A stretch of 64,000 bases of DNA, taken from positions 174,315,896-174,379,895 of the forward strand of contig OY992540.1 in the NCBI GenBank assembly GCA_963921195.1, read 5' to 3'. The stretch comes from Pegoplata infirma (lineage: Eukaryota; Arthropoda; Insecta; Diptera; Anthomyiidae). Positions within the stretch are counted from its first letter, which is position 1. Every line of letters begins with the position of its first letter. Position numbers and translations under genes: made by a program. The notes below the pieces were generated by a model. It was not told the origin of the DNA. It did not search any database and saw nothing but the letters and a program-made list of their open reading frames with translations. Below, in pieces: positions 3,443 to 62,740 of this stretch.

Positions 3443-5682
3443 TAGGGTGGCTCGTTTTTGGGCTTTTCTCTCTGATCAAATTCTAATACCCGCCAAAAGT
3501 GTCGGTCCCTTAAGGGTAACTCACATGCAAAATATCACTCCGATCGGAGTTTATCTTCTGTCTCCACTTTGAGCCTCAAAATTGGGGTTTTCGTAAAAAA
3601 GGACTTTTTAAAAAAAATAAAAAAAAATTTAAGTTTTTTTACTAAAATAATTAAAAAACTATTTTTGTATAATATATGATCGTAAATACTTAAATATGAA
3701 ATTTATAGATTTTACGGTATCATTAACCCGTTCAAACTTGATACCAAAAAAATGGCATGATTTTGGGGGCGTTCTCAAAACACCTTTTTTCAAAATTTGA
3801 AAATTTTATTAAAAAAAATTTTTAAATATACCATTTTTTCTTTCTGAATTCATTAAGAACACATTGGAGAAGAAAAATGTGAAATATGGCGGATATCCGT
3901 CAAGCCACTTTTCGGGAATCGCGAGGGGAAGTTAGCGGATTTCAAGGAAATGTTGGTTTTATCAATAATTTGGATTAATAACATCTTATAAATTTATTTT
4001 TTGTGCAAATTAACGGTATTTTGGTGTAGTGGCATTCTATTATATAACTTTAAGTCTGTCATGAAATCTTACAGATCTAGGACGTCTTAAACCCACATTG
4101 GCTGGGGGTCAAAAGTGACCCCCGCGGAAAATTTGAAGTTTAGAGCTTAAATTTTGTGCTATAAACAAGTATAAAACGGCTTTTGTGTTTTTTACCCCAA
4201 CTATTATTTCGTATTAATATATTATCTTTTAAAAAATCGTTAACCCTTCCTGGTAGGGGGTCAAAAATGACCCATTCAATAAAAAGTTGGGGTCATTTTT
4301 GACCCCTGGCCAATGTAGGTTAAAGATATCTTAAATATGAGAGATTTAAGGGCTGATTTAAAGTTATCTAATAGATTGCCACAAATTAATTTTATATGAA
4401 AAAATATATATATACAAAGATGGGCTAACGATTTTTTTAAAGATAATATATTAATACGAAATAATAGTTGGGGTAAAAAACATAAAAGCCGTTTTATACT
4501 TGTTTATAGCACAAAATTTAAGCTCTAAACTTCAAATTTTCCGCGGGGGTCATTTTTGACCCCCAGCCAATGTGGGTTTAAGACGTCCTAGATCTGTAAG
4601 ATTTCATGACAGACTTAAAGTTATATAATAGAATGCCACGACACCAAAAACCGTTAATTTGCCAAAAAATAAATTTATAAGATTTTATTAATCCAAATTA
4701 TTGATAAAACCAACACCTAGAAAAGTTTTACAGTAACTATTTACGGTTATCCAAAAAGTTTTTAGGTAAAGTTATTTTAAACGTTTAATCGTTTGTTTTT
4801 CAAAAAAACTAAATTATTGAAAGATTTATACAGTTGTTAAAACAATAAACTACAAAAATTTACGGAAAAATGTTTTTATCAGTTAAGTAATTTTTGACTG
4901 ATTATTCCGTATAATTTTACAGAAGTACGGTTTTTGTAGTTTGTTATTAAAAAAAAAAATATTTTTACTCCACAAAATAAAAAATTGTAAACAGTTAAAA
5001 TAACTGAAATATCATTTGTTTTTACGGAATGTCTAGTCATTTATTAACGTTTAAAAATAACTGAAAAAGTATGTTGTTTCAAGTGAAATATAAGTAGTCC
5101 GTTTTTTAAAAGGAAAAACGATTGTTTTAAATGTTTTTTCAGTTGAATTTACTTACAAAATATTTTAAGTGAACATTTCCTTGAAATCCGCTAACTTCCC
5201 CCCGCGATTCCCGAAAAGTGGCTTGACGGATATCCGCCATATTTCACACTTTTCTTCTCCAAGGTGTTCTTAATGAATTCAGAAAAAAAATGGTATATTT
5301 AAACATTTATTTTAATAAAATTTTCAAATTTTGAAAAAAGGTGTTTTGAGAACGCCCCCAAAATCATGCCATTTTTTTGGTATCAAGTTTGAACGGGTTA
5401 ATGATACCGTAAAATCTTTAAATTTCATATTTAAGTATTTACGATCAAATATTATACAAAAATAATTTTTTAATTATTTTAGTAAAAAAACTTAAATTTT
5501 TTTTTTATTTTTTTTTAAAAGTCCTTTTTTGCGAAAACCCCAATTTTGAGGCTCAAAGTGGAGACAGAAGATAAACTCCGATCGGAGTGATATTTTGCAT
5601 GTGAGTTACCCTTAGGGCACCGACACTTTTGGCGGGTATTAGAATTTGATCAGAGAGAAAAGCCCAAAAACGAGCCACCCTA
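3443..5682. mobile_element. hAT-like fold-back element
   Basis: The termini are TAGGGTGGCTCG (3443) and CGAGCCACCCTA (5682). They are flanked by near-identical 8-bp duplications, GTACGAAC (3435-3442) and GTACGTAC (5683-5690), which fit the hAT pattern nTnnnnAn. The element is almost entirely palindromic: 3443-4260 pairs with 4265-4716 plus 5174-5682. The right arm is interrupted at about 4717-5173 by a relic of another repeat. No transposase is encoded. A transcript would form a very long hairpin. Confidence 0.75.
4717..5173 (+). repeat. Diverged copy of a 0.4-kb MITE inside the fold-back arm
   Basis: This block is absent from the left arm, where the matching sequence runs straight from TTTCAAGGAAATG to TTGGTTTTATC. 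It is therefore an insertion in the right arm. Its order of motifs (AAAGTTATTTTAAA, TTTTTGACTG, TTTTCAGTTGAATTTACTTAC, AAGTGAACATT) resembles the elements at 15947-16345 and 44626-45009. It is much more diverged than they are. The edges are uncertain by a few bases. Confidence 0.5.
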
Positions 5683-19381: not shown

Positions 19382-20036
19382 AACAAGTAAGAGTGTTAAA
19401 TTCGGCTGTGCCGAATCTTTTATACCCTCAAACATGCACATAAATAAAAAAAAAATTGCAGGGGCGTCTTCTTTTTTTGGAGGGGGGGGTCGGTAGTGGT
19501 AATTAGGGGGGCACAATTCCTCTCCAATAAGTGTTAAAAAAAAAATAATTCTTATGATTTTTGCACTAAAGAAATACAAATTTATCATTAAATTAAATTA
19601 AATTAGCGGACCGTAAAACCATATTTTTTAATTGTGAGTCCAAATACAGGACCTTGAACTTCTTGTAGCATAAAAATGTTGGATTTGGTAAACAAAAACA
19701 CAAAAAATCATGTAAAAATATGGTATTTTTCAGAGGTTGGTTTAGTTCTTCAAGGGTTCTTTTCCCCCCAGGTCCGATTTTGCCCATCTCCGAACTTAAC
19801 CAGCCTGTAAACATAAGACATATATGTACCAAATTTCAGGAGTCTATCACTTTTATTTTGGACTGTATCGTGTCTTCCACAGACGGACGGACAGACGGAC
19901 ATCGCTAGAATGTCTTAGAATCGATCACTGACCAATAATATATACACTTTATGGGGTCCTAGACCGATATTTCGATGCGTTACACACGGAATGACAAAGT
20001 GAGTATACCCCCATACTGTAGTTGGAGGGTATAAAA
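19382..20036 (-). mobile_element. mini-me/Helitron-like element
   Basis: Read in reverse it starts with TTTTTATACCCTCCAAC and continues with GTCATTCCGTGTGTAACGCA, CCCATAAAGTGTATATATTA and the GTCCGTCCGTCTG microsatellite (short here). It ends with the hairpin ATTCGGCACAGCCGAAT and CTCTTACTTG. The arrangement of a (TA)n block, a core of about 33 bp and GTCY repeats is the described layout of dipteran mini-me elements. The hairpin terminus suggests a Helitron-like origin, which is an inference. It is non-coding. Confidence 0.7.
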
Positions 20037-20326: not shown

Positions 20327-20392
20327 TAGCTTAAGTAGTTAGGCGGCGGTTTACAAATCATGAGTGTTCAAATAATCAATTTAATCTAATTA

Positions 20393-20435
20393 CCTACTGA
20401 TGACGTAGAAGTGCCTACAGAAACTATGGTCTAGG
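20393..20435 (+). ncRNA. Hammerhead ribozyme motif (single copy)
   Basis: All core positions of a type I hammerhead are present in order. Stem I 5' strand CCTA (20393-20396) is followed by CTGATGA (20397-20403). Stem II is GTAG/CTAC with a 6-base loop (20405-20418), then GAAA (20420-20423). Stem III is AC/GT closed by TATG (20422-20430 region). The triplet GTC ends at 20431 and stem I 3' strand TAGG at 20432-20435. Pair 10.1-11.1 is C-A rather than the usual G-C. Cleavage would follow C20431. A stem III of two pairs is as reported for hammerheads of Penelope-like elements and animal retrozymes, which act best as dimers. Activity is not shown. Confidence 0.6.
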
Positions 20436-24622: not shown

Positions 24623-25978
24623 GGAAAGTTGTTACAAGGGGAACTCCACAAGGGGGAGTGATCCTCCTCTTCTGTGGGTGTAATCCAGGTTGGTAATTAT
24701 GTAACTTGATAGTCGTCAATCGTATCGTTTCCATCGTTATTCCATTACCATATAGTGTCATTTTATAGTAATAGAATAATGAACTAATGATGACGATTAT
24801 CAAGTTTCATAATTAGCGCCCTGGACTCAAAGCTTTCCTGGAAATGAAGTACAGAGGAAGGATGAAAATTTGTTACGTGCTTTTTAAACCTGCAGAAGAA
24901 CTTTCGGAAGAAGGTGGAGTCTAAAACCGTATATTATCCACTGGATATATTGTGCGATAATTAGACCAATACTTACCTATGGTGCCCTTGTATGGTGGAG
25001 AGCAGTGGTTTAGAATTCATATATCTGCAATCTCCAGAAGTGATATTAAGCATTTAGCCAGCGGTTATTTATGTCAAGTGCGCAGCAGCAAAGCCGGCTC
25101 TCAGGTTAAGAAAGTCGCAAATACTTAAGCAACGCTGTCCCCAAAAGCGTCGACCATATTAAGTACGGATAAGCGTAGTGTTTTCTGGCTGAGGTACTTG
25201 CAGTTGATAAGGCCGCGCAGATTATTGTGAACAGGGACCTTCGTCCTTGCGTCATTAACATTTTCGTGGATAGTCTTGCAGGTCTGGAAGCCTAAGAATT
25301 AAACACTGTAAAATCGGGAATAGTTAGGAATTGTATACAATCAGTCAGCATACAATCAAGGGGTTGCTGGGAACGAGTTGGCTTATGGTTGTGCGAGAAA
25401 TTGACTTTGAATCGGTGGGGGAACATGTAGAACCTGGCATCTCGGTTCCTATAGTGGAATTGATAAACAAAATTTATGGGATATCTGAGAATAGAATGAA
25501 GGATAGGTGGATATCACTGACTACGTGCAGGATATCGCGAACCCTGTGGCCACTGCCAAATCCTAAGAGAATAAAAAGTCTTGTTACTTTTGGAAAAGGT
25601 GAGCCTATTAGTAAGAGTACTTACAGAATACTGTATATTTGCCCAGTTGGCCGTGTGTATGGGAATTTCTGATAGGGACTATTACAGAAGTTGTGGGGAA
25701 GTGGAGGAGGAGGAATCATTGAAGCACTTGTTATGTGAATATCCGGTTCTAATCAAAAGCCGCTTTAAGCATTTTGGGTAAAGATTTTTCTATGACCTGG
25801 ATTGCCTAAATGGTGTCTCATTGACGTCTATAGCAGAATACCTTAGAGAATCGAGGTGGTTTAAGAAGTAGAACTTTGTATCAGAGGGGAAGTAGGAAAA
25901 TAAAATAAAGGGAATCACAATGGGTCTTATTACCTCCGAGTGAATTCGACAAATGTCGAACGCCAATCCAACCTAACC
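24623..25978 (+). pseudogene. Decayed LOA-like LINE copy (partial RT, RNase H, 3' end)
   Basis: This is a second copy of the LINE at 34292-39678. It opens in the RT block that encodes GTPQGG (24632 onward, as at 37830) and loses the sequence up to the LDSKLSW block. It resumes with CTGGACTCAAAGCTTTCCTG near 24820. It passes through degraded RNase H and the zinc-like C-terminal block (CRSCGEVEEEESLKHLLCEY in one frame near 25690) and ends in the family's AATCCAACCTAACCTAA tail at about 25978. Many frameshifts and deletions, plus a nested palindromic MITE (24693-24818), show it is dead. Open frames at 25331-25672 and 25581-25781 are fragments of it. Confidence 0.8.
24693..24818. mobile_element. 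Small palindromic MITE inside the LINE copy
   Basis: TAATTATGTAACTTGATAGT at about 24694 pairs with ATTATCAAGTTTCATAATTA at about 24816, with the GTCGTCA/TGACGA block continuing the arms. The intact LINE lacks it. It is a hairpin of about 125 bp. The flanks CCAGG.. and ..CCTGG are not enough to define a target duplication. Confidence 0.55.
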
Positions 25979-34183: not shown

Positions 34184-34535
34184 TTGGTTTATTTTTACTC
34201 GGGTTAACAAAAAAAATAAAAATTTTAAATTGGAGATTTGAAAATAGTGTTAAAAAATTCAGACCACTTTAGCATTTATTTAAAACAAGTTCTTCCGCCA
34301 CTGGTAACAATCTTGACGCGATGCGGGAGCTTACGTGTACATTAGTTGAGTTTCAGTCTGGGTCGTTAAAAGAAATTCTCTTTTAACGTCAAAGGCAGAA
34401 AATCGCGAATGGCATAACCAAAGGTTACCAACCCCCCCCCCCCCTATGATGAGTGCACCTATTGAATTAATATCTGCAAGTGGTACGCGGACTTAGTCCG
34501 TAAATCCACCCATAAAACCCTCTCACGAGGATTCT

Positions 34536-35852
34536 GTGGCCGGGGCGCAATATTTGGATGTCCCACACTCGTCAGCCCCAACTACTGTCCAGGTGGCTAC
34601 CTCAGGCCTGGACGGCGGACATGCTACTGGGGTAGAAAAACCAAAACCGTCATCGATCACCAGGCAGGCGAACATGGATGTGACTTCAGATTGTGACACC
34701 AATGACCAACTGTCGGGCTTGGATGACCTTGCTTTATATGATACCGACGAGGAGGATATCTTGCTGCTATCCCCCAGACCGGTTCAGGAAGCAAGTGTTA
34801 TCTCTAAGCCCGAAAAAGGGGTCAAGGGTGATGCAGGTGAAGCCATCGCCACGGAAGCCCGCCTGGTGAAAGATGACACAAAACGTTTGGCAGGCTACAG
34901 GCGCTCTCTCAGGTACTTGAGGAAGCTGGCTCTACGCGATCCAGCTACCCTAAGTACAAGGGATAAGCGTCTAAGGCGGAAGCATGAATTCCATGTCAAA
35001 ATGTATGAGAGAATGAATACACCAGACATGGAAGATCGGTGCCAAGCCATGGCGATCTCAGATCAATCTGGGCGCCATGACAACTCCGATGTGCGAAAAC
35101 CGGATTCCGTAGTTCCTAGCGGATCCGGACTGATCACGTCCGCCAAATCAAACGCACTGGACACACGCCCCTCCACATCACGTGGAGCGGCTGTGGGCGG
35201 TACCAAGATTTGCGGGGGTCTAACCGCCAAAGCCAGAAATGGAGACGGTAAACCGAAGGGGCAAGCCGTACACACCTCGAATAAAGGTGGTACTGCAGGC
35301 TGCAAGGTTGACGCCTCCAAATCTGGTGGAAAGCGGCAAAGATCCGGTGAAACGCAGGTGTCTGAGGAAAAGAGGTTGAAACCATCAACTAGCTTGACAT
35401 CAGCACCTGAGCTACAAGTAGCCATTATCGACCGAAGCCATCCAGAAGGCAGGATGGCTACGGACAGGTGGCTGCTTATAGAGGAACGGATCCTTAGGTC
35501 ACTAGTTGACGCGCTCAAGGACAGTGATGATGATTCATTCACTGAATTTGACCACGCCAAATGGAATAAGGGCATCAAGATCGTGGGCTGCAGCAATGAT
35601 AAAGCGCTAAACTTTCTCAAAACCTGCATCCACGGTCTTGATGACCTTTGGCCTGGGATGGAGGTAGAGGTCGTCCCTGTTGACCAGGTTCCTTACCAGG
35701 CTACAGTGAAGGTGTGGATTCCTCCTCCAGTTATAGAGGATGAATCCATACTTACGCTGCTTAAACGCCAAAATAAGGGGCTTGGTTCTGATGATTGGAG
35801 AATCATCAGGGGACGTGGGGGGACAAGGGAGACGGTAAGGATCTCTGGCTAA
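34536..35852 (+). CDS. LINE ORF1 protein (DUF4780-like, RNA-binding/chaperone role expected)
   Basis: The open frame encodes about 438 codons. The N-terminal two thirds is low-complexity, Ser/Thr/Lys/Gly-rich and probably disordered. The last 140 residues or so (from LQVAIIDRSHPEGRM to VKVWIPPP and the C-terminus) resemble the DUF4780 domain of dipteran LINE ORF1 proteins. No CCHC knuckle is seen. ORF1 proteins of this class bind element RNA. Position 34536 is GTG, so it is not a normal start; the first in-frame ATG is 34674. Upstream in the same frame an ATG at 34446 is followed by a TAG at 34494, so the ancestral start was probably 34446 and the reading frame is now cut by one stop. ORF2 starts 103 bases after its end. 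Confidence 0.75.
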   Translation: MAGAQYLDVPHSSAPTTVQVATSGLDGGHATGVEKPKPSSITRQANMDVTSDCDTNDQLSGLDDLALYDTDEEDILLLSPRPVQEASVISKPEKGVKGDAGEAIATEARLVKDDTKRLAGYRRSLRYLRKLALRDPATLSTRDKRLRRKHEFHVKMYERMNTPDMEDRCQAMAISDQSGRHDNSDVRKPDSVVPSGSGLITSAKSNALDTRPSTSRGAAVGGTKICGGLTAKARNGDGKPKGQAVHTSNKGGTAGCKVDASKSGGKRQRSGETQVSEEKRLKPSTSLTSAPELQVAIIDRSHPEGRMATDRWLLIEERILRSLVDALKDSDDDSFTEFDHAKWNKGIKIVGCSNDKALNFLKTCIHGLDDLWPGMEVEVVPVDQVPYQATVKVWIPPPVIEDESILTLLKRQNKGLGSDDWRIIRGRGGTRETVRISG

Positions 35853-35955
35853 AAATCAGCTCGGAGTCCTTGCGCCTTCTGCGCCTCTCCAAAGGCGAAG
35901 TAAAATTCGGGTTGAATCATCTGAAGATGATTCTTCCCAAAGAAGAAGCGCAAAA

Positions 35956-36462
35956 ATGAATCCCGGCTGCATCAAGGTGGTACAGATTAATCTGCATCAC
36001 TGCGAAGCAGCTACGGATGAATTGCTGCGCTTCATGGAGAGGGACGGAATTGACGTGGCTTTGATCCAAGAACCCTGGTTGCGTGCAAACAGGGTTCGGG
36101 GACTGAAGTCGCAAAAATTCATGCTCATCTCTCCACCTGGTGAAGGTAGGTTGCGAAGCTGCATTTTGTATAGGAAAAGTATTAATTTATTTCATCTGTC
36201 TCATTACAGTCATGGCGATCTAACGGTGGCTGCGCTCGAACGCAAGGGGTTGCCAACATTAATCCTTGCGTCCATGTACCTGTCATATGAGGAGGAAGAC
36301 CCCCCAGGACAACATCTACGAACCCTAATCGAAGTTGGCATGATCAAGGGCCTGGATATTGTGGTAGGTGGGGATGCCAATGCTCACCATACATTATGGG
36401 GAGCACTGATATCAACAGGCGAGGTGAGTCCATCTTTGATTACCTTTTATCCACTAATTTAG
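35956..36462 (+). pseudogene. LINE ORF2, 5' part: AP-type endonuclease
   Basis: Starts at ATG 35956 (MNPGCIKVVQINLHH). The order VQINLHH (residues 9-15), LIQEP (about 36-40) and VVGGDANAHHTLWG (about 136-149) is the apurinic-like endonuclease that nicks the target site. QEP holds the metal-binding Glu and GDANAHH the catalytic Asp/Asn. After LWG the frame is wrong. The protein continues correctly in the frame beginning GSTDINRRGES at 36399. One base is missing in the G run at about 36398-36401. The tail of this frame to 36462 is therefore nonsense. Confidence 0.85.
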
Positions 36463-39400
36463 TTATATGCAATAAAGGCAATAGGCCGACTTTCTATAAC
36501 AGAATTAGGGAACAGGTTATCGATATAACCTTGGACTCAGTTAGAATTTCAGACTGGAGAGTATCGAATGAATGCTCTTTCTCGGACCATTACTGGATAC
36601 TCTTTGGCATTGACCTCTCAATCGAGAATAGGATCCCGTATAGGAACCCCAAGAGAACAAACTGGGCTAAATTCCGTAATCTTGTTAGAGCACTACCGGC
36701 CCCTGAAATGGATAAACCGGTCAGCATATTAGATGTGGAAAACTCGGTTAGTTTAGTGACGAACACCCTTAGGGAAGCGTATCTTAAATCATGTCCAGAG
36801 CGCTTGCCTCCGAAAAAGATCCATCAACCATGGTGGACACCGGAACTCAAGCTTCTAAGGACGGAAAGTAGGAGACTCTTCAACAAGGCAAATAAAGATG
36901 ACACGACGGAAGACTGGGAGAACTATCGTCTCAGTTTTAATGCTTTCAAAAGGAAAACCAGGAAGGCGAAAAGAGAATCCTGGTCCATTTTCTGTGGGGA
37001 ATTGGAGGGAACTACGGAAGCGGCGAGACTCCGTAAGGTTCTCTCCAAAGCTCCCAGTGTACCGGAATTTCTTTATAAGCCAGACGGATCCTTTGCAGAA
37101 AGCAGTCAGGAAACCATTGAACTTCTGATGGACACCCATTTTCCGGGTTGCAGTGACGAGGTGAAAAGAAATATTCCTTCGGGTACACTTTCACCGACTA
37201 CAATTCCGGTAAATGAATTCATCAAGACAGTGGTGGACGAACGCAAGATAACGTGGGCGGTCCACTCCTTCAAGCCCTACAAATCGGCAGGGCCTGATGG
37301 TATTTTTCCGGCACTCTTGCAGGAGTCCCTCGGGATAATCATGCCATGGCTACTACGTATTTTTATGGGTAGCTTGGCATCGGGGTATATACCCTCCGAA
37401 TGGAGGGAGGTAAGGGTGGTCTTTATCCCCAAAGCGGGAAAGATAAACCACAGTACCGCAAAGGACTACAGACCTATCAGTCTGTCATCGCTTTTATTGA
37501 AAACACTGGAAAGACTGGTAGATGTCTATGTGAAAAGTACCCTCACATCAGAAAATTTCAGCGTGGCCCAACACGCCTATCTTAAAGGTAGGTCTGTTGA
37601 AACGGCTTTAAGCGACGTTGTCGGGCTGATTGAGGACACTCTTCACAGAAAAGAGTATGTTTTGGCATCATTTTTGGACGTGGAAGGTGCGTTCAACAAT
37701 GTCAAAATATCATCTATTCTTAATGCCCTACAGAATACGGGTACGGACACACAGATTACCTCATGGACGGGCAACATGCTGAAAAGCAGGGCAATTAACT
37801 CGAAGATAGGTGATGGTGAGGCGAGGAAAATAGTTACAAGGGGCACTCCACAAGGAGGAGTCATCTCTCCTCTTCTGTGGAATCTTGTAATAAATGAAAT
37901 CCTCGAGTCACTTAACGAAATGGGTATCAAGGCGGTTGCTTACGCTGATGACGTTGTGATCCTAATAAGAGGTAAGTTTTTACCAACGATTAGTGAACTC
38001 ATGGAATCAGCGCTTAAGATACTCTCAAAGTGGGCAAGGGACAACGGTCTGGGAGTCAATCCCGCCAAAACCGAACTCGTCTTGTTCACGAAGAGGACTA
38101 AGATAGACAGGTTTGTCCTTCCCAAATTAGATGGAATCACCCTGGAGTTATCCAATGAGGCGAAATACCTGGGTGTGATCCTGGACTCAAAGCTTTCTTG
38201 GAAAAGAAACACCGAGGAAAGGATGAAAAAGTCGTTATGCGCTTTTTACACCTGCAGAAGAACTTTCGGGAGAAGGTGGGGTTTAAAACCGTATATCATA
38301 CACTGGATGTATGGTGCGATAATTAGACCAATACTTACCTATGGTGCCCTTGTGTGGTGGAAAGCAGTGGATAATAAATCATATCTCTGCAATCTACAGA
38401 ACGTACAACGACTGGCGTGTGTGGGTATCACTGGTACTATTAGATCAGCACCCCAGGCCGGTTTGGAAGTGATACTAAACATTCAGCCCGTGGATATTTA
38501 CGTCAAGAGCACAGCAGCAAAATCGGCTCTCAGGTTAAGAGAGTCGCAAATGCTTGAGCAACGCTCTTGGGGACACTCGACTATATTAAGTACGGTGGGC
38601 GGGACGGAACTGGAACAGAGAACCGACTATATCTCACCACAGACGAACTTTGACAGAACCTTCGAAGTCCAAATACCGACTAGAGAAGACTGGGCGGAAA
38701 ACTCTGTTATTACAGAGAATGCGATCTCAATCTTTACGGACGGATCGAAAATGGAGATGGGTACGGGTTCGGGAGTCTACTCTGAATGCCTCGAAATCGG
38801 GGTCTCATTGAGGCTTCCGGATAAGTGTAGTGTTTTCCAGGCTGAGGTGCTTGCAATTGACAAAGCCGCGCAGTTAATTATGGCAAGGGATCTTCGTCCT
38901 TGCGTCATTAACATTTTCGTGGATAGTCTCACAGCTCTGAAGGCCTTAGAGTCAAATACTGTAAAATCGGGAATAGTTTTGAATTGTATACAATCGCTTC
39001 GTCGAATCGGTCAGCACACAGTCAAGCTAATCTGGGTCCCAGGCCACAGTGGGGTCGCTGGGAACGAATTGGCTGATGAGTGTGCGAGGAAGGGCTCTGA
39101 ATCGGTGGGGGAACGTGTAGAACCTGACATCTCGGTTCCTATAGTAGAATTGATGAACGAAATTGATAGGATATCTGAAAATAGTATGAAGGATAGGTGG
39201 ACATCACTGACTACGTGCAGGATATCTAGAACCCTGTGGCCACTGCCGAATCCTAAGAGGACAAAAAGTCTTCTTACTTTTGGCAAACGGACGGTTAGCC
39301 TATTAGTTGGAGTACTTACAGGACACTGTATGATTGGCCAAATGGCCGTGCGTATGGGAATTTCTGATAGGGACTATTGTAGGAGCTGTGGGGAAGTGGA

Positions 39401-39566
39401 GGAAGAGGAGTCAGTGAAGCACTTGCTATGCGAATGTCCGGGTCTGAGGAGGAGCCGCCTTAAGCATTTAGGGCAAAGATTTTTCGATGACCTAGACTGC
39501 CTAAGCGGTGTCTCATTGACGTCTCTAGCGGAATACCTCAGGGAAACGGGGTGGTTTAAAAGGTAG
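36396..39566 (+). CDS. LINE ORF2, main part: reverse transcriptase and RNase H
   Basis: This is an open frame of 1056 codons that continues the endonuclease after the one-base deletion, so the ATG at 36396 is incidental. It holds the last endonuclease block SDHYWILFG (about 65). The reverse transcriptase has FIPKAGK (about 342), YRPISLSS (about 357), FLDVEGAFNN (about 426), GTPQGGVISPLL (about 481), AYADDVVIL with the catalytic DD (about 514) and YLGVILDSKLSW (about 590). RNase H I has FTDGS (about 779), QAEVLAID (about 815), FVDSLTAL (about 840) and WVPGHSGVAGNELADE (about 879), with D-E-D-D residues all present. The C-terminus has a CX2CX10HX4C knuckle (about 993). Function: target-primed reverse transcription of the element RNA. 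Confidence 0.9.
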   Translation: MGSTDINRRGESIFDYLLSTNLVICNKGNRPTFYNRIREQVIDITLDSVRISDWRVSNECSFSDHYWILFGIDLSIENRIPYRNPKRTNWAKFRNLVRALPAPEMDKPVSILDVENSVSLVTNTLREAYLKSCPERLPPKKIHQPWWTPELKLLRTESRRLFNKANKDDTTEDWENYRLSFNAFKRKTRKAKRESWSIFCGELEGTTEAARLRKVLSKAPSVPEFLYKPDGSFAESSQETIELLMDTHFPGCSDEVKRNIPSGTLSPTTIPVNEFIKTVVDERKITWAVHSFKPYKSAGPDGIFPALLQESLGIIMPWLLRIFMGSLASGYIPSEWREVRVVFIPKAGKINHSTAKDYRPISLSSLLLKTLERLVDVYVKSTLTSENFSVAQHAYLKGRSVETALSDVVGLIEDTLHRKEYVLASFLDVEGAFNNVKISSILNALQNTGTDTQITSWTGNMLKSRAINSKIGDGEARKIVTRGTPQGGVISPLLWNLVINEILESLNEMGIKAVAYADDVVILIRGKFLPTISELMESALKILSKWARDNGLGVNPAKTELVLFTKRTKIDRFVLPKLDGITLELSNEAKYLGVILDSKLSWKRNTEERMKKSLCAFYTCRRTFGRRWGLKPYIIHWMYGAIIRPILTYGALVWWKAVDNKSYLCNLQNVQRLACVGITGTIRSAPQAGLEVILNIQPVDIYVKSTAAKSALRLRESQMLEQRSWGHSTILSTVGGTELEQRTDYISPQTNFDRTFEVQIPTREDWAENSVITENAISIFTDGSKMEMGTGSGVYSECLEIGVSLRLPDKCSVFQAEVLAIDKAAQLIMARDLRPCVINIFVDSLTALKALESNTVKSGIVLNCIQSLRRIGQHTVKLIWVPGHSGVAGNELADECARKGSESVGERVEPDISVPIVELMNEIDRISENSMKDRWTSLTTCRISRTLWPLPNPKRTKSLLTFGKRTVSLLVGVLTGHCMIGQMAVRMGISDRDYCRSCGEVEEEESVKHLLCECPGLRRSRLKHLGQRFFDDLDCLSGVSLTSLAEYLRETGWFKR

Positions 39567-45776: not shown

Positions 45777-47034
45777 TCCTAAAAAGTAGTTAATTTCATA
45801 TTTTTTATTGGTTTATTTATAGAATAGCATGTTCCTATAAACAGAATTCTCATTATGTACATTTTTTATAGTCAAGTAATAAATTTCATTAGTCTTTAAA
45901 GTTAAATTACAACAAAGTCTTAGTATTTGACGTTTGTTCCCAGACTATGGAAAACACGCCAAAACCAAGGCCTTTATTGCGTTATACAAGATCAAACTCT
46001 TTTTTTTATATACATACATTAAATAATAAACAAAATGTGAACTACATAAGCAAGCATGAAAGAAAAACAAATCAACAAATCAATTTCAAGTTATGAAAAA
46101 TTTACTAAACTTGTGAAAAAAACTTCCTCAAATTAAAGAAGATATGTAAATATGATGAACTAACTGGTAGTAAATAACGTCCTAAAACTGCATTTTTTGA
46201 ACTAAATTTTGTTTTGAGAAATATGTCTTAAAAATAAAGATTTTTTTTCAATTATTCAGCGAAAATTTCTTTGGTGGTAAGAATTTGTTCCATGTATTAG
46301 GGAATTCCATTTAAGAAAAATTATGGCCTATTTAACAGTACATGAACTAAAATTTATTCCTAGCAGTTAAGAAAATTTCCCAACTTTCAGTTAAATTTAA
46401 CTAAATTGTGGGAAAATTTATAAACTATTTTGAAGAAAATTTTTTCCAAAGTTTAAGTTAATTCATTTTTTTGAGTGTACGAATTATAGAGTTGTCAACT
46501 ATTCGGCATATTTTAAAAACCGGTTTTCGAATAGTTAAAAAAACCGCCGTTTTTTTAAAACCGGTTTTCGGTTTTTTTATTTGAAAACCGGTTCGAATAA
46601 CCGGTTTTTTCGGTTTTTTTAATAAAAATTGTTAAAAACATTAAATAAATAGGTTTTAATTTGTTTAAAAAAAAAAAACAATTGTACACAATTCATTCTT
46701 ATTAAATAAATCAAATTTAAAGCTTAAAACACCAAAATATACATATTTTTTATGTAAGTAAATAAAATGTTTTTAATTTATAGTAATAGAAATTATAGGG
46801 TCAGTCACTATAAAATGGAACTATGTACTTTTAATCAGTATAATAAGGACTTAAATACATTTAAAAAATACATTTAAAACATTTTTCTTGTTAGTGTTTC
46901 TTCACAACCGCGTCTTTTAACCAGAGTAAGGAATCTACAAAAGATCTGACATCACCAAAACTAATTGGAAAAATCTGTTAATACCACACTAAAGTTTAAA
47001 CGTAAAGCAAAGAGAGACAAAAAGCAATCTGCAT

Positions 47035-47910: not shown

Positions 47911-48867
47911 ATCTGCATTCTTACTGTATAACTGGTATCTTTCATTTCGCTCAGATTTCGATTTGTGATAAAATTTCTTAAACAATACCATATGATTTTT
48001 GTTTACTACTTTTTCAAACGCCATTTGTTACCCTACTCTATAACTCTGCTTTTAACCTTCTTATTTATTACTGAATTAAGAAACAAAATTTCATATACAG
48101 AGTTGTATTTTACAAAATTTGTAACAAATGATGACAAAAAAATTAAGTATTATATATTCGAAAATGTCGAATAATTTGACACAAAAAAACCGGTTTTTCG
48201 AATAACTAGAAAACAACCGGTTTTAAAAAACCGGCTTGGAAAAACCGTGAAAAAGCGAAAAAACCGGTTTTTCGGATAATTCGGAAACCGGTTTTGACAA
48301 CTCTAACGAATTAATTCATCATATTTGTCTTCTTTAATTTGAGGAAGTTTTTCTACAAGTTTAGTAAATTTTTCATAACTTGAAATAGATTTATTTTTTT
48401 GTTTCATGCTTGCTTATGTAGTTCACATTTTGTTTATTATTTAATGTATAAAAAAGGGTTTGATCTTGTATAACAAGTTATAAGTTTACATTTTTTCTAC
48501 ACATGTATGTGTTAGAGAGAAAATAATATTTTAATCAAAATAAAGGGCTTTGTTTTTGACGTGTTTTCCATAGTCTGGGAATAAACGTCAAAGGCTAAGA
48601 CTTTGTTGTAATTTAACTTTAAAGACTAACGGAATTTATTACTTGTCTATAAAAAAATAACGTTTTTTTATATTAAATGTTGTTTTTTTATTTTTAGTAC
48701 CAAAAGGTACATAAAAATAAAATGTATTTATTCGGCCTTTATATATGTATATATATTCGATTAGAGTTTTATTCTAGTTCGAGGCCCAAAAATATTTCTA
48801 TTTATGATATTGTCATAATAGAGTATTTTTAATTTATTGCTTTAAAAAAGTTACTATCTCATAGTAT

Positions 48868-48914
48868 GTCTGTACTGATCAGTTTCATCCCCACTAAAGG
48901 AATCTTCAGCAGAC
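48868..48914 (-). ncRNA. Hammerhead ribozyme motif, inverted unit
   Basis: Exact reverse complement of the 47-base motif described at 49561-49607, including core, stems and loops. Confidence 0.7.
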
Positions 48915-49560
48915 TTTAGAGAATCATCGTTGGTCAATCAAACATCAAACCAGACATAATATTTGATATATTTCCCAAGTTATATGAGAAGTACTATTAT
49001 GAAGGTCCGAAATCTGTTTTCCAACAAAAATAACTCTTTTAAAGCAAAAATTGTATATATTAAATCACCGTCGGTAACTATTAATATATGTGTTGCTGTT
49101 ATTTTACAATAACAACAGTGCCTAACCAAACAATAGTGTTGGTAGGATAAGTCGTACTAAACTTTGTGTTAAATGTTGTTTTTTTATTTTTAGTACTAGA
49201 ACTAGAATAAAACTCTAATCGAATATATATACATATATAAAGGCCGAATAAATACATTTTATTTTTATGTACCTTTTGGTACTAAAAATAAAAAAACAAC
49301 ATTTAACACAAAGTTTAGTACGACTTATCCTACCAACACTATTGTTTGGTTAGGCACTGTTGTTATTGTAAAATAACAGCAACACATATATTAATAGTTA
49401 CCGACGGTGATTTAATATATACAATTTTTGCTTTAAAAGAGTTATTTTTGTTGGAAAACAGATTTCGGACCTTCATAATAGTACTTCTCATATAACTTGG
49501 GAAATATATCAAATATTATGTCTGGTTTGATGTTTGATTGACCAACGATGATTCTCTAAA

Positions 49561-49607
49561 GTCTGCTGAAGATTCCTTTAGTGGGGATGAAACTGATCAG
49601 TACAGAC
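49561..49607 (+). ncRNA. Hammerhead ribozyme motif, tandem unit 1
   Basis: Stem I GTCTG (49561-49565) pairs perfectly with CAGAC (49603-49607). The core CTGAAGA (49566-49572, consensus CTGANGA) comes next. Stem II TCC/GGA (inside 49573-49588) with an extra T-G pair possible, then GAAA (49589-49592). Stem III ACT/AGT has the four-base loop GATC (49592-49601). The cleavage triplet GTA ends at 49602. Pair 10.1-11.1 is T-T, the one departure from consensus. Farther out, TCTC and GAGA could extend stem I beyond an internal loop. Tandem cleavage would yield 496-nt monomers. It is type I, as in metazoan satellites and Penelope-like elements. Self-cleavage is untested. Confidence 0.75.
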
Positions 49608-50056
49608 ATACTATGAGATAGTAACTTTTTTAAAGCAATAAATTAAAAATACTCTATTATGACAATATCATAAATAGAAATATTTTTGGGCCTCGAACTA
49701 GAATAAAACTCTAATCGAATATATATACATATATAAAGGCCGAATAAATACATTTTATTTTTATGTACCTTTTGGTACTAAAAATAAAAAAACAACATTT
49801 AACACAAAGTTTAGTACGACTTATCCTACCAACACTATTGTTTGGTTAGGCACTGTTGTTATTGTAAAATAACAGCAACACATATATTAATAGTTACCGA
49901 CGGTGATTTAATATATACAATTTTTGCTTTAAAAGAGTTATTTTTGTTGGAAAACAGATTTCGGACCTTCATAATAGTACTTCTCATATAACTTGGGAAA
50001 TATATCAAATATTATGTCTGGTTTGATGTTTGATTGACCAACGATGATTCTCTAAA

Positions 50057-50103
50057 GTCTGCTGAAGATTCCTTTAGTGGGGATGAAACTGATCAGTACA
50101 GAC
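50057..50103 (+). ncRNA. Hammerhead ribozyme motif, tandem unit 2
   Basis: Same 47-base sequence as unit 1, 496 bases downstream. Confidence 0.75.
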
Positions 50104-50552
50104 ATACTATGAGATAGTAACTTTTTTAAAGCAATAAATTAAAAATACTCTATTATGACAATATCATAAATAGAAATATTTTTGGGCCTCGAACTAGAAT
50201 AAAACTCTAATCGAATATATATACATATATAAAGGCCGAATAAATACATTTTATTTTTATGTACCTTTTGGTACTAAAAATAAAAAAACAACATTTAACA
50301 CAAAGTTTAGTACGACTTATCCTACCAACACTATTGTTTGGTTAGGCACTGTTGTTATTGTAAAATAACAGCAACACATATATTAATAGTTACCGACGGT
50401 GATTTAATATATACAATTTTTGCTTTAAAAGAGTTATTTTTGTTGGAAAACAGATTTCGGACCTTCATAATAGTACTTCTCATATAACTTGGGAAATATA
50501 TCAAATATTATGTCTGGTTTGATGTTTGATTGACCAACGATGATTCTCTAAA

Positions 50553-50599
50553 GTCTGCTGAAGATTCCTTTAGTGGGGATGAAACTGATCAGTACAGAC
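50553..50599 (+). ncRNA. Hammerhead ribozyme motif, tandem unit 3
   Basis: Same 47-base sequence again, exactly 496 bases after unit 2. Confidence 0.75.
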
Positions 50600-51016
50600 A
50601 TACTATGAGATAGTAACTTTTTTAAAGCAATAAATTAAAAATACTCTATTATGACAATATCATAAATAGAAATATTTTTGGGCCTCGAACTAGAATAAAA
50701 CTCTAATCGTTTTTTTATATTTATAATAAAAAATGTACATAATGAGAATTATGTGTGTATTCACATGATATTCTATAAATAAACCAATAAAAAATATGAA
50801 ATTACCTAATTTTTAGGAAATATGTCCTCATCAAAAATGTTTTTTTAAACTAAAAAATGGGAATTTTTTTCCATTTTCTAGTTCAAATTGGTCCTTATTT
50901 TTAAGAAAAATATGGACTAAATAGTAGGAATACGTGGCAATGGAGCTAAATAATTATCAATTTTCCTTGGATTCAGTTAATTTTCCTATTTTTTAGTTAG
51001 TTTTTTTCTGAGTGTG

Positions 51017-51917: not shown

Positions 51918-52404
51918 CACTGTGCAACAAGAAAAATGAGCCTCAATGGCTTCAACGCCATATGAAAGTAGACCATCAAATGGACAAAATCACCAAAGGG
52001 TTTTGCAAGTCAGTTCGGATTTCTTTTTTATAGCCCACTGAAGTTTTTATTTTTTTATCAAAGGCGTTTGGAAAACGTCAAAAATACTATAATAAGAACA
52101 CATCTGAGCTCCAAAATATGATTTGATGTCTACAGTGAAGTTTTATGGCGGTTCTTTTCTTAGAACATTTTAACCCTCTAACTGCCATTTTAAGGGGTCA
52201 TTTTAGTCCTTTTTCAAAAACTAAACACAGAAGTCTAATAATACGTCCATTTAGAGGGTTAATATGTTCTACAAATATTTTCCTCATAAAATTTCACTAG
52301 GGGTTGTCAAATGTTGAAAGTTTGTGCGACATGGGCAAAGTGCTTAAAAAGGATCAAGTATAAATAATCCATGTTTGTTATTTTTTTTTACCAAAGCAGT
52401 GTTA

Positions 52405-53014
52405 AACAAGTAAAAAAGTTAAATTCGGCCTTGCCGAATGTAGTGATACCCTCCACAATTTCAAAAAGATTATTGCAAACAACTTTATTTAAAAGGAAAT
52501 AACTTTTGAAAAAAAAAAAAAAAATTGAAAAAAAATTCCGCGAAAAAAAATTTTGGTAAAAAAAAAAATCCGCGATTTTTTTCTTTTTTTGTCAAAAAAT
52601 ATGTTCACACTTGTTTAAATACCATTTGGTGTTCAATTATGGTAACATATGTCAACCAGAAGCCGAATTAAAGCATTTTGTATTTTTAGGTTATGTTGAA
52701 TGTACTGAAATTTTTGAGGTGTGCTTACATTTTCGTTCACAACTTTTGAACCGCTGAACCGATATCGCTCAAATGCAATACCAAACTTCTCGGGAGAACT
52801 TCCAATATATATGTTAAGTTTCAGTCATCTCTGTGCAATATTTTGTCCGCGAGAGCATTTTCCACAGACAGACGGACATCGCTAGAATGTCTTAAAATCG
52901 ATCGGGCATCATGAATATATATACTTTATGGGGTCCCAGACCGATATTTCGATGAGTTACAAACAGAATGACAAACTTATATATACCCTCTATCACTAAG
53001 TGGAGGGTATAAAA
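52405..53014 (-). mobile_element. mini-me/Helitron-like element in the fold-back arm
   Basis: Nearly identical in reverse to 22561-23206, with the same hairpin ATTCGGCCTTGCCGAAT, the AACCGCTGAACCGATATCGC block, a shortened GTCY tract and CTATCACTAAGTGGAGGGTA at the end. The opposite arm (near 54400, TCGATATTTTCTAACTCTGC) lacks it, which locates the empty site between GTTA and ATATCG. No target duplication is seen, as expected for Helitron-type insertion. Confidence 0.75.
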
Positions 53015-54080: not shown

Positions 54081-54903
54081 TTTTTTTTTTATATTTCGGC
54101 CCAAAAAAATATAAAAAAGAAAATTTTAATACTTTAAAATTTTAAAGCATTTTCTATATGCTGGACGAACTTTGTCTTAGACGTGCCCTAGTAAAATTTG
54201 ACGCAGAAAATATTTGTTAAACATTTTAACCCTTTATAGACTTTTTTGTATTTCTTTTAAAAAAGTACAAAAATGACCCTTTAAAACGGGAGCTAGAGGG
54301 TTAATGTGGTCAAAGAAAAGAATCACCATAAAATTTAAAAATACACATCAGAACATCATTTTTAGCTCAAAAGTATATTTGCACTGTTTTTTGTCGATAT
54401 TTTCTAACTCTGCTTTGGTAAATAAAAATAACAAACATGGATTATTTATACTTGACCCTTTTTAAGCACTTTGCGGATGTCGCACAAACTTTGAACATTT
54501 GACAACCCCTAGTGAAATTTTATGAGGAAAATATTTGTAGAACATTTTAACCCTCTAAATGGACGTTTTATTAGACTTCTGTGTTTAGTTTTTGAAAAAG
54601 GACTAAAATGACCCCTTAAAATGGCAGTTAGAGGGTTAAAATGTTCTAAGAAAAGAACCGCCATAAAATTTCACTGCAGACATCAAATCATATTTTGGAG
54701 CTCAGATGTGTTCTTATTATAGTATTTTTGACGTTTTCCAAACGCCTTTGATAAAAAAATAAAAACTTCAGTGGGCTATAAAAAAGAAATCCGAACTGAC
54801 TTTGCAAAACCCTTTGGTGATTTTGTCCATTTGATGGTCTACTTTCATATGGCGTTGAAGGCATTGAGGCTCAATGCGATGACCCAAAATTTGTTGCACA
54901 GTG

Positions 54904-60813: not shown

Positions 60814-61423
60814 TGAAATCACGTTTTTGGCAATACTCCGAAACCGATTTAAACGCTTGGGGTACCAAAAGTTGCGTAATTTTCCCAGGCAAAAACTCAT
60901 GTATTTTTTTTCTAAATTCATTATTTTTTTCCAACATAACCCTAAATTAACTCATATTTTGTGTAGATACATAACAAAGAAAACGGAAATGAAAAAAAAA
61001 AATAACAAAAAGGAAAAAAAGAAAAAATCTTTACAAAAAAACTTTAAAATATGTAAAACAAAATCTAAATTTAATTAAAAAAAAGTTAGTTAAGTAATAA
61101 TAAAAAAATTAATAGTTATTTTTATATAGCATGTGTGTGTGTGTGTCTATTTTTTGCTTCGTCATATTAACGGGGTTGCCAGACTTTTTTTGGCTTTGTC
61201 GCCAAGTCGGATGTAAAATTTCGCCAAAATTCAACTTTGTTCAGATTTCTTAAAAAAAAAAAATAATTTCATTTAAAAAAATAAATTTTGTTAAATAATA
61301 AAAGGCAGAAATAAACTTTATGGAAAAAATCGCCCAAATCCGGAAAATCTAAATATATAAAAGAGTAATGTGACTCACTGACATACTCATTCATCATCGC
61401 CCAGCTCAAACCGCTGAAGTTAG

Positions 61424-62215
61424 AGACTTGAAATTTAGACTGTAGGTTAACCTCCCGGAATAAAGATCCACTAAGGCTGGATTTTTGCCAATGTTGATTC
61501 TAAGGGGGTAAAAAGGGTAAAAAACTGTACTTTTGGTACTTTTTATAACTCCCGATATAATGGTCGTAGAGACTTGAAATTTGGACTGTATGTTACCCTC
61601 CCGCAATTTAGATCCACTATGGCTGGAGTTTTGCCAATGTTGATTCTAAGGGGGTAAAAAGGGTAAACAACTGTACTTTTGGTACTTTTTAAATCTCCTG
61701 ATATAATGATCATAGAGACTTGAAATTTGAAATATGTGTGTTCAACTCCCGGAATATATTTCCATTAAGGCTGGATTTTTGCCAGTGTTGATTCTAAGGG
61801 GGTCAAAAGGGTAAAAAACTGTACTTTTGGTGCTTTTTATATCTAATGAAATAATGGACATAGAAACTTGAAATTTGGACGTATGTTTACATCCTAGAAT
61901 ATAGATCCAGTTCGGTTGGATTATTGCCAATGTTGATTCTAAGGGGGTAAAAAGGGAAAAAATCTGTACTTTTGGTACTTTTTATATTTCCTTAAAAAAT
62001 TGTCACATAGACTTGAAATTTGGACTGTATGTTCACCTCCCGGAATATAGATCCCCTAAGGCTGCTTTTTTGCCAATGGACTGTATGTTCACCTCTCGAA
62101 ATATAGATCCCCTAAGGCTGCTTTTTTGCCAATGATGTTTCTAATAGGGTAAAAAGGGTAAAAATATGTACTTTTGTTACATTTTATATTTCCTTAAATA
62201 AAGACACTAGAAAAT
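61424..62215 (+). repeat. Minisatellite, unit about 143-150 bp, five to six copies
   Basis: GAGACTTGAAATTTGGACTG or a close variant begins at about 61424, 61568, 61711, 61861 and 62010, with a partial duplication at 62079 and a last variant at 62211. Every unit also has TTTTTGCCAATGTTGATTCT, AAGGGGGTAAAAAGGGTAAA and CTGTACTTTTGGTACTTTTT. Minus-strand open frames of 62-66 codons here are by-products of the repeat. Confidence 0.85.
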
Positions 62216-62249
62216 TGAAATTTGCAATGTCGGTTCACCTTCCGGAAAA

Positions 62250-62740
62250 AAAGTACCTTTTATAAAAAGTACCTTTTATAAAAAGTACCTTTTATAAAAA
62301 GTAACTTTTGTAAAAAGTACCTTTTATAAAAAGTACCTTTTATACAAAGTACCTTTTATAAAAAGTATCTTTTATAAAAAGTACCTTTTACAAAAAGTAC
62401 CTTTTATAAAAAGTAATTTTATAAAAAGTACCTTTTACAAAAAGTACCTTTTATAAAAAATACCTTTTATGAAAAGTACCTTTTATAAAAAGTACCTTTT
62501 ATAAAAAGTACCTTTTATAAAAAGTACCTTTTATAAAAAGTACCTTTTATAAAAAGTACCTTTTATAAAAAGTACCTTTTATAAAAAGTACCTTTTATAA
62601 AAAGTACCTTTTATAAAAAGTACCTTTTATAAAAAGTACCTATTATAAAAAGTACCTTTTATAAAAAGTACCTCTCAAAAAAAGTACCTTTTATAAAAAG
62701 TACCTTTATAAAAAGTACCTTTTATTAAAAGTACCGAAAG
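62250..62740 (+). repeat. AAAAAGTACCTTTTAT tandem repeat
   Basis: About thirty copies of a 16-bp unit with a few point variants (AACTTT, ATCTTT, TACAAAA). It follows directly on the 145-bp array, whose GTACTTTTGGTACTTTTTAT motif is a likely precursor. Each unit is nearly self-complementary (AAAAGTACCTTTT). Confidence 0.9.

Follow-up and report, generated by a model that had tools for sequence, protein, structure and literature searches.

The array at 48661-50721 of the window, i.e., of the whole 64,000-nucleotide stretch of DNA analysed here, is best explained as an insertion of a young, high-copy, non-autonomous metazoan non-LTR retrozyme that was copied into both strands of its target by a Penelope-like element (PLE). 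We assign this reading a probability of roughly 85%; within it, we infer self-cleavage of the RNA, a circular template and PLE action in trans. The positions at which the copies start and end suggest that the retrozyme moves with Penelope-like machinery. The initial annotation of the locus had proposed a complete mobile retrozyme-like insertion with Penelope-like behaviour, and this proposal is now supported by the copies, the target duplications, the short arrays and the related PLE ends reported below.

Between the two copies of the target duplication CGTTTTTTTATATT, the insertion consists of 3.05 direct and 1.05 inverted copies of a 496-bp unit with a GC content of 28% (Table 1). The direct arm has 1511 bases (3 x 496 + 23), with a period of exactly 496 and no mismatches, and the inverted arm has 522 bases, or 524 exact matches to the unit if the two bases shared with the duplication are counted. 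Both arms are perfect copies of one unit, and the earlier description of three direct and one inverted exact units meeting head to head is confirmed, with a 2-base filler at the junction. The enclosing 14-bp direct repeat (12 bp at minimum) is confirmed as well: 12 bases are unambiguous, while its CG and its TT also belong to the unit. The array contains no ORF of at least 120 aa, and in particular none encoding the RT and GIY-YIG domains of an autonomous PLE. The insert had also been described as absent from the opposite palindrome arm. A minus-strand paralogue of both flanks (46163-45777) indeed lacks it, but this sequence is diverged and additionally 30 bases short at the site, and is therefore no exact pre-insertion allele.

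Table 1. Features of the insertion and of its flank paralogue, in positions of the window.
Feature	Position	Strand	Remark
Left target-site duplication CGTTTTTTTATATT	48661..48674	.	12 bases unambiguous; TT common to unit
Inverted arm: unit 81-496, then 1-106	48675..49196	-	outer end at the '106' site
'Tail' segment (unit 33-106), outer end of inverted arm	48675..48748	-	derived coordinates
End motif GGCCTCGAACT, inverted arm	48776..48786	-	
Hammerhead-like ribozyme motif, type I, inverted arm	48868..48914	-	
Two filler bases, head-to-head junction	49197..49198	.	
Direct arm: three identical 496-bp units + 23 bases	49199..50709	+	outer end at unit 21-23 ('32' type)
Hammerhead-like motif, direct unit 1	49561..49607	+	predicted cut after 49602
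Hammerhead-like motif, direct unit 2	50057..50103	+	predicted cut after 50098
Hammerhead-like motif, direct unit 3	50553..50599	+	predicted cut after 50594
End motif GGCCTCGAACT, direct copies	49689..49699, 50185..50195, 50681..50691	+	one base off PLE 3'-end motif
'Tail' segment (unit 33-106), direct copies	49231..49304, 49727..49800, 50223..50296	+	between the two putative RT start sites; made up of AAAGGCCGAATAAATACA, 42 extra bases and ACATTTAA
Right target-site duplication CGTTTTTTTATATT	50708..50721	.	CG common to unit
Diverged flank paralogue without insert	45777..46163	-	30 bases missing at site

Each unit carries one hammerhead-like ribozyme motif, which is absent from the initial annotation and was found since; its core and stems I-III are present in all four units of the window. 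The motif reads GTCTG-CTGAAGA-TTCCTTTAGTGGGGAT-GAAACTGATCAGTA^CAGAC (^, predicted cut), and its core is that of a type I hammerhead. Stem I has 5 bp and continues beyond an internal loop as a second helix; stem II begins with a U-U mismatch, and the short stem III is part of a palindrome. Among 20,000 dinucleotide-shuffled versions of the unit, 9 match the hammerhead descriptor. The motif is probably self-cutting. In the axolotl retrozyme hammerhead HHR_Amex2, helix II likewise begins with a U-U mismatch; its cleavage is slow in the monomer and improved in the dimer (excerpts of PMC7229834). Rfam reports no hammerhead in the unit; as a control, the hammerhead-like motifs of 17 PLE 3' ends (see below) are likewise missed, and the silence of Rfam on the unit therefore says little. 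Two Rfam miRNA hits at the array span the inverted junction and were set aside as apparent long-hairpin matches. Exact hammerhead pieces of the unit were not found in the viral contig and genome contig collections. Elsewhere in the window, a second hammerhead-like match lies at about 20392 (+), with 0.13 such matches expected per shuffled window.

Folding of the unit as a circle yields an unusually stable structure on the ribozyme strand (MFE z -8.2, 0 of 200 shuffles as low), the other strand reaching z -4.0. Counting against the hammerhead, the 71-nt segment alone is of ordinary stability (z -0.49). Moreover, a circle constrained to form the hammerhead is 4.6 kcal/mol less stable than the best circle fold, which pairs differently, under nearest-neighbour rules that leave tertiary contacts out of account.

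A genome search for the ribozyme motif of the unit, in line with the copy count recommended in the initial annotation, revealed 3,097 occurrences (1,555 + 1,542) in the 1.38-Gb genome to which the window belongs, using a 47-nt ribozyme pattern with at most 3 mismatches; a reversed-pattern control gave 0. The 100 matches listed of these 3,097, all on contig C1, fall into 46 separate clusters, and the strand switches among them are minus-then-plus (head to head) in 20 of 20 cases and plus-then-minus in none. All of these clusters were retrieved. Insertions were thus sampled from the first 74 Mb of one contig and from the window, with only copies having a hammerhead within 3 mismatches being taken. 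The arrays are short, variable in length and dispersed, their arms reaching up to 3.4 units, and the unit measures 494-511 among insertions.

Target duplications were counted in 43 insertions, namely 42 fetched sequences and the window (L050 and L051 were left out and L070 came later). Direct repeats of at least 9 bases flank 35 of the 43, with modal lengths of 13 and 14 (22/35). Repeats of at least 12 bases flank 29/43, versus 0.9% of 1,806 mismatched flank pairs, and the duplications are therefore not due to chance. Their GC content is 11%, compared with 16% for their flanks and 31% for the window. Eight insertions have no direct repeat of at least 9 bases; a duplication is visible by eye in two of these (C1_13530956 and L056). 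L040, counted among the 35, is doubtful: the repeat counted there is unit sequence, and visual inspection shows a different duplication together with a very short second arm. L050 and L051 are one insertion split by another element, with a 10-bp duplication by eye, and L038 and L049, which have 1.3 kb of flank in common, are probably one event counted twice.

These duplications bear on a possible satellite origin of the units, by way of DNA circles or unequal exchange. Such an origin would account for head-to-tail tandem units and homogeneous arrays, but not for dispersed short arrays, separate 13-14 bp duplications, fixed ends (see below) and head-to-head polarity. Since duplications occur at separate sites, this explanation is refuted and we give it next to no weight; the initial claim that the array is not ordinary satellite thus stands, given the 35/43 separate duplicated sites and the 46 clusters among the 100 matches listed. 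Nor would an error of assembly produce fixed ends and duplications over and over at dozens of sites.

The ends of the arms were placed on the unit for 73 arms, counted after joining two split alignments and leaving out L038, L050, L051 and L070. Outer ends fall into two narrow bins (unit 8-38 or 95-116) for 68 of the 73 arms, and define two sites at unit ~32 and ~106, 74 nt apart; one of the five misses (43) shifts to 32 once its duplication is removed. Inner ends scatter, and only 5/73 lie in those bins, near the 8 expected. The two sites are paired. Among the two-arm events with a duplication (n=25), 23 combine a '32' end with a '106' end, two have {106,484} and none has two alike. Ends are less clean in events without a duplication, i.e., {106,465} in L036, {29,69} in L052 and {108,18} in L039, and same-kind pairs of the '32' type, again without duplication, are seen in L038/L049 ({36,36} and {36,30}) and in L070 ({32,30}). 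The split event L050/L051 has ends {105,337}, as read by eye. One-arm events with a duplication (n=10) end at 106 in seven cases and at 32 in three, L040 being one of the three. The 30 inner junctions comprise 17 overlaps of 1-12 bases, 4 flush joins and 9 with filler. The 12-base overlap is that of the window and arises from the alignment, as the true junction there has two filler bases. The window's overhangs (23 and 26 nt) could be taken for a stop rule of the enzyme, but they follow from the two fixed end sites.

Twin priming by a LINE is compatible with duplications of such length and with inverted arms, and would be expected to fix the 3' end while leaving the other end random. The RNA could in principle be moved in this manner, for example by the RNase H-bearing LINE of the window, which would produce an inverted arm and 13-bp duplications, and a nearly open LINE is present at 34497-39563. 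However, both outer ends are fixed, 74 nt apart, where a single fixed end is expected, and the unit end resembles PLE 3' ends. We consider LINE mobilisation very unlikely.

Five places in the genome were detected by a search for GIY-YIG, one of which (L062) resembles a host gene of the SLX1 kind. L064 encodes RVT_1 and GIY-YIG in one frame and L065 the same domains in two frames, while L066 and L063 are related to L064/L065 at 97% and 86% in DNA. Among named proteins, the best relatives of L064 come from Haematobia irritans and Musca domestica. With the PLE protein P0121 (a relative of 827 aa) as query, 55 places were scored of 2,136 candidates; their frames span 695-865 aa and 47 of the 55 have no internal stop, i.e., the genome holds many open PLEs. 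Their arrangement has the same polarity as the retrozyme arms: 11 hand-picked PLE pairs at most 10 kb apart include 7 '-+', 2 '++', 2 '--' and 0 '+-'. Individual copies exhibit the corresponding insertion features. Copy s65 is flanked by a 13-bp duplication and includes a 57-nt inverted arm as well as a tail end, s66 has an 11-bp duplication and a tail-less end, and s64 has a tail end, a duplication having been looked for there and not found.

A Penelope-like RT with matching ends had been suggested as a target for searching, and PLEs are indeed present with 3' ends related to that of the unit. We read 17 PLE 3' regions out of the 55 scored places and drew up the end patterns after reading them; each pattern is one base off the unit. 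The end motif [AG][AG]CCT[CT]GAGCT, whose version in the unit is GGCCTCGAACT, occurs in 17/17 PLE 3' ends and in 0/17 on the reverse strand. In the 64-kb window, a widened form of this pattern matches the four array copies and one other place. A minimal hammerhead is found in 16/17 PLE 3' ends with a strict pattern and in 17/17 with a loose one; a scan of four PLE loci with a strict CTGANGA core gave no hammerhead, their copies having CAGATGA or CAGAAGA where visible. The PLE tail start AAAGGTCGAA, with AAAGGCCGAA as its counterpart in the unit, is present in 10/17 ends and absent from 7/17. The order of elements in the unit is that of the PLE ends: hammerhead, GGCCTCGAACT, TATATATA (end 1), AAAGGCCGAATAAATACA, 42 hairpin-bearing bases and ACATTTAA (end 2).

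Alignment scores give a graded picture. Over ~120 nt, none of 2,000 shuffles matches the unit end as well as s64 does. Over 78 nt, seven of the 17 PLE ends are equalled by at most 10 of 1,000 shuffles (0 for L072, L075, L080, L083 and L087, 2 for L074 and 6 for L079) and four more by at most 50 (12 for L081, 18 for L073, 21 for L085 and 45 for L076). The remaining six (L077, L071, L082, L078, L084 and L086) are not significant, with 88 to 419 of 1,000 shuffles. The resemblance between unit and PLE ends is thus mixed: some PLE subfamilies show it clearly, whereas in others it is weak.

This shared end raises another reading, namely that the unit is the pseudo-LTR (pLTR) of a PLE family and the arrays are body-less PLE copies, with no separate retrozyme. 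The PLE-like end motif and tail, the hammerhead-like motif and the PLE-like insertion mode of the unit would all fit. Yet among the 61 fetched retrozyme loci, L035 alone has a match to P0121, a 41.7% fragment at a distance of over 3 kb from the unit (the 10-kb stretch that separates L050 from L051 lay outside this comparison). Moreover, the hammerhead of the 17 PLE 3' regions read (of 55 scored places and 2,136 candidates) is different and shorter, and these regions are unit-like only near the end. We therefore find the pLTR reading improbable, though less so than LINE mobilisation, and retain that of a retrozyme moved by PLEs.

Comparison of 38 complete units from 22 insertions provides clues to the template. 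Unit pairs are identical in 9/13 comparisons within an arm and in 7/11 between opposite arms, the latter with no substitution in any of the 11, whereas units of different insertions differ by a mean of 2.16 substitutions and 1.62 gaps and are identical in 15/231. Unit length also varies mostly between insertions and not within them, L053 (497-501) being an exception. The units of one insertion thus look like copies of one template. Consequently, unit identity within an insertion does not date that insertion, and the initial argument from near-perfect identity to recent insertion fails; low divergence between insertions is a better sign of youth. Of the 73 arms, 42 are longer than one unit and 62 extend across the predicted cut, which would be expected if the template were a circle or a multimer. 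We rejected a linear hammerhead-cut monomer as the sole template because so many arms cross the cut and because inner ends lie at 403-406 in only 3/73 arms.

The choice between a circle and a multimer is less clear-cut. The same PLE machinery might have used a multimeric linear read-through transcript, with no role for the hammerhead. For an anole PLE, unprocessed RNA is the dominant substrate in vitro, a linear template of this sort has been proposed, and hammerhead mutants leave insertion in vitro unchanged (excerpts of PMC11167929). The arms crossing the predicted cut are also in favour of such a template, and the homogeneous parent arrays would give a homogeneous transcript, which could explain the tandem units as well. 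Arms of up to 3.4 units, near-identical units in both arms and the unusual self-pairing of the unit as a circle suit one circle, although a multimer is compatible with each of them. We regard the linear multimer as possible but doubtful. By analogy with published retrozymes, the retrozyme RNA is probably circular, and we infer that a single RNA serves both target strands.

Work on the anole PLE provides a framework for the ends. In vitro, this element cleaves and extends both strands and prefers AT-rich DNA; its RT starts at two neighbouring sites inside the RNA, and the stretch that separates these sites is the genomic 'tail', with no apparent start-site difference between strands (PMC11167929, in the parts available). 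The two end sites of the unit, the AT-rich duplications and the polarity are what these results predict for an RNA carrying the PLE signal. In the cycle that we propose, a retrozyme array would be transcribed, the hammerhead in each unit would cut the RNA into 496-nt monomers and a host ligase would close these into circles, as reasoned from published retrozymes. A PLE protein of the same genome would then bind the RNA at the end signal GGCCTCGAACT ... AAAGGCCGAATAAA ... ACATTTAA, related to the PLE 3' end, and cut both strands of AT-rich DNA ~13 bp apart. DNA synthesis would be primed inside the RNA at unit ~106 and ~32 (74 nt apart), as a rule one per target strand. Synthesis round the circle would generate tandem units, and with both strands copying RNA of the same sense the arms would lie head to head with variable inner ends. 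Repair would finally join the arms and leave the 13-14 bp target duplication.

SINEs that share their 3' end with a partner LINE are non-autonomous RNAs carrying the RT start signal of their helper; the retrozyme differs from them in that its proposed helper is a PLE and its signal has two start sites. Retrozymes of this kind are already known (PMC7229834, PMC7761336, both in part). Like the unit, the metazoan non-LTR retrozymes described in the available portions of PMC7229834 are non-coding and AT-rich, contain a type I hammerhead with stem III and occur as dimers to multimers, with target duplications of more than 4 bp and co-existing PLEs as in the fly family. The unit is longer, with 496 bp versus ~170-400 nt, and those portions contain no description of metazoan retrozymes with two-armed head-to-head insertions, two fixed ends and a 3' end of PLE type. 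Penelope/Poseidon-type PLEs share with the unit the head-to-head inverted and direct copies, the optional tail at one end, the short duplication, the AT-rich targets, the hammerhead before the end and the two internal starts; they differ from it by their ORF, their hammerhead and a tail of ~31 instead of 74 nt (excerpts of PMC3846280 and PMC11167929). Plant LTR retrozymes are also non-coding hammerhead retroelements thought to use circular RNA, but they are characterised by LTRs, a PBS and a PPT, by hammerheads of type III and by duplications of 4 bp (PMC7761336, in part).

PLEs were named a strong candidate mover of animal retrozymes by Cervera and de la Pena in 2020 (PMC7229834, in part), and in the available text of a December 2024 review the choice between LINEs and Penelope-like retroelements is still left open. 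We found no demonstration of retrozyme mobilisation by a PLE in the CC-licensed PMC literature, preprints excluded. The novel point is that a single insertion in the fly generally uses one start site per strand. This pairing of unlike ends, seen in 23 of the 25 events that have two arms and a duplication, is a new constraint on how PLEs may copy both target strands. On balance, we favour the view that the retrozyme carries the two-site start signal of PLEs and that one RNA circle feeds both broken strands, the first DNA strand starting from one site and the second from the other. If true, this would account for both the optional 'tail' of PLEs and their inverted copy in living animals, and animal retrozymes would then be moved by PLEs. 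With thousands of young copies that have a PLE-type footprint and a PLE-like end, the question of the mover becomes directly testable in one fly.

Foreign DNA lies inside two copies of the retrozyme-like repeat on contig C1, amounting to about 1.4 kb, palindromic in part, in L038 and to about 5.1 kb in L070. Each copy has two '32'-type ends (outer arm ends near unit position 32), and a search for target-site duplications at these two insertions found none. Within the window, an isolated second hammerhead-like match with a CTGATGA core was found at about 20392-20434 (+), the chance expectation for such matches being 0.13 per shuffled window. The widened end motif derived from Penelope-like element (PLE) 3' ends has a single match in the window outside the array, at 19650 (+), which is possibly an old end of a PLE or retrozyme.

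Repeats and interrupted retrozyme copies
Feature	Location	Strand	Details
Inverted repeat pair	window 3578-3839 / 5285-5546
Inverted repeat pair	window 51995-52409 / 54400-54814
LINE, second copy	window near 24865-25897		partial
LINE	window 34497-39563	+	nearly open; ORF1 + ORF2
Tandem array, 146-bp	window 61421-62078		adjoins 16-bp array
Tandem array, 16-bp unit	window 62248-62735		AAAAAGTACCTTTTAT, about 30 copies
L038, interrupted retrozyme	C1:21334400-21338900
L070, interrupted retrozyme	C1:58446900-58454900

Both inverted repeat pairs show 92-96% identity and are likely foldback elements or paired element copies. Besides its place in the 16-bp tandem array, GTACCTTTT is present in the tail hairpin of the 496-bp unit. 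In the nearly open LINE, ORF1 contains DUF4780, and ORF2 encodes, in overlapping frames, endonuclease, RT and RNase H. Named relatives in the matches listed include Musca domestica and Bactrocera tryoni.

Contigs C1-C5 and the small contigs of the genome containing the window carry many open PLEs, often arranged in tandem or head-to-head. A single fly genome with many open PLEs is a good system for PLE biology.
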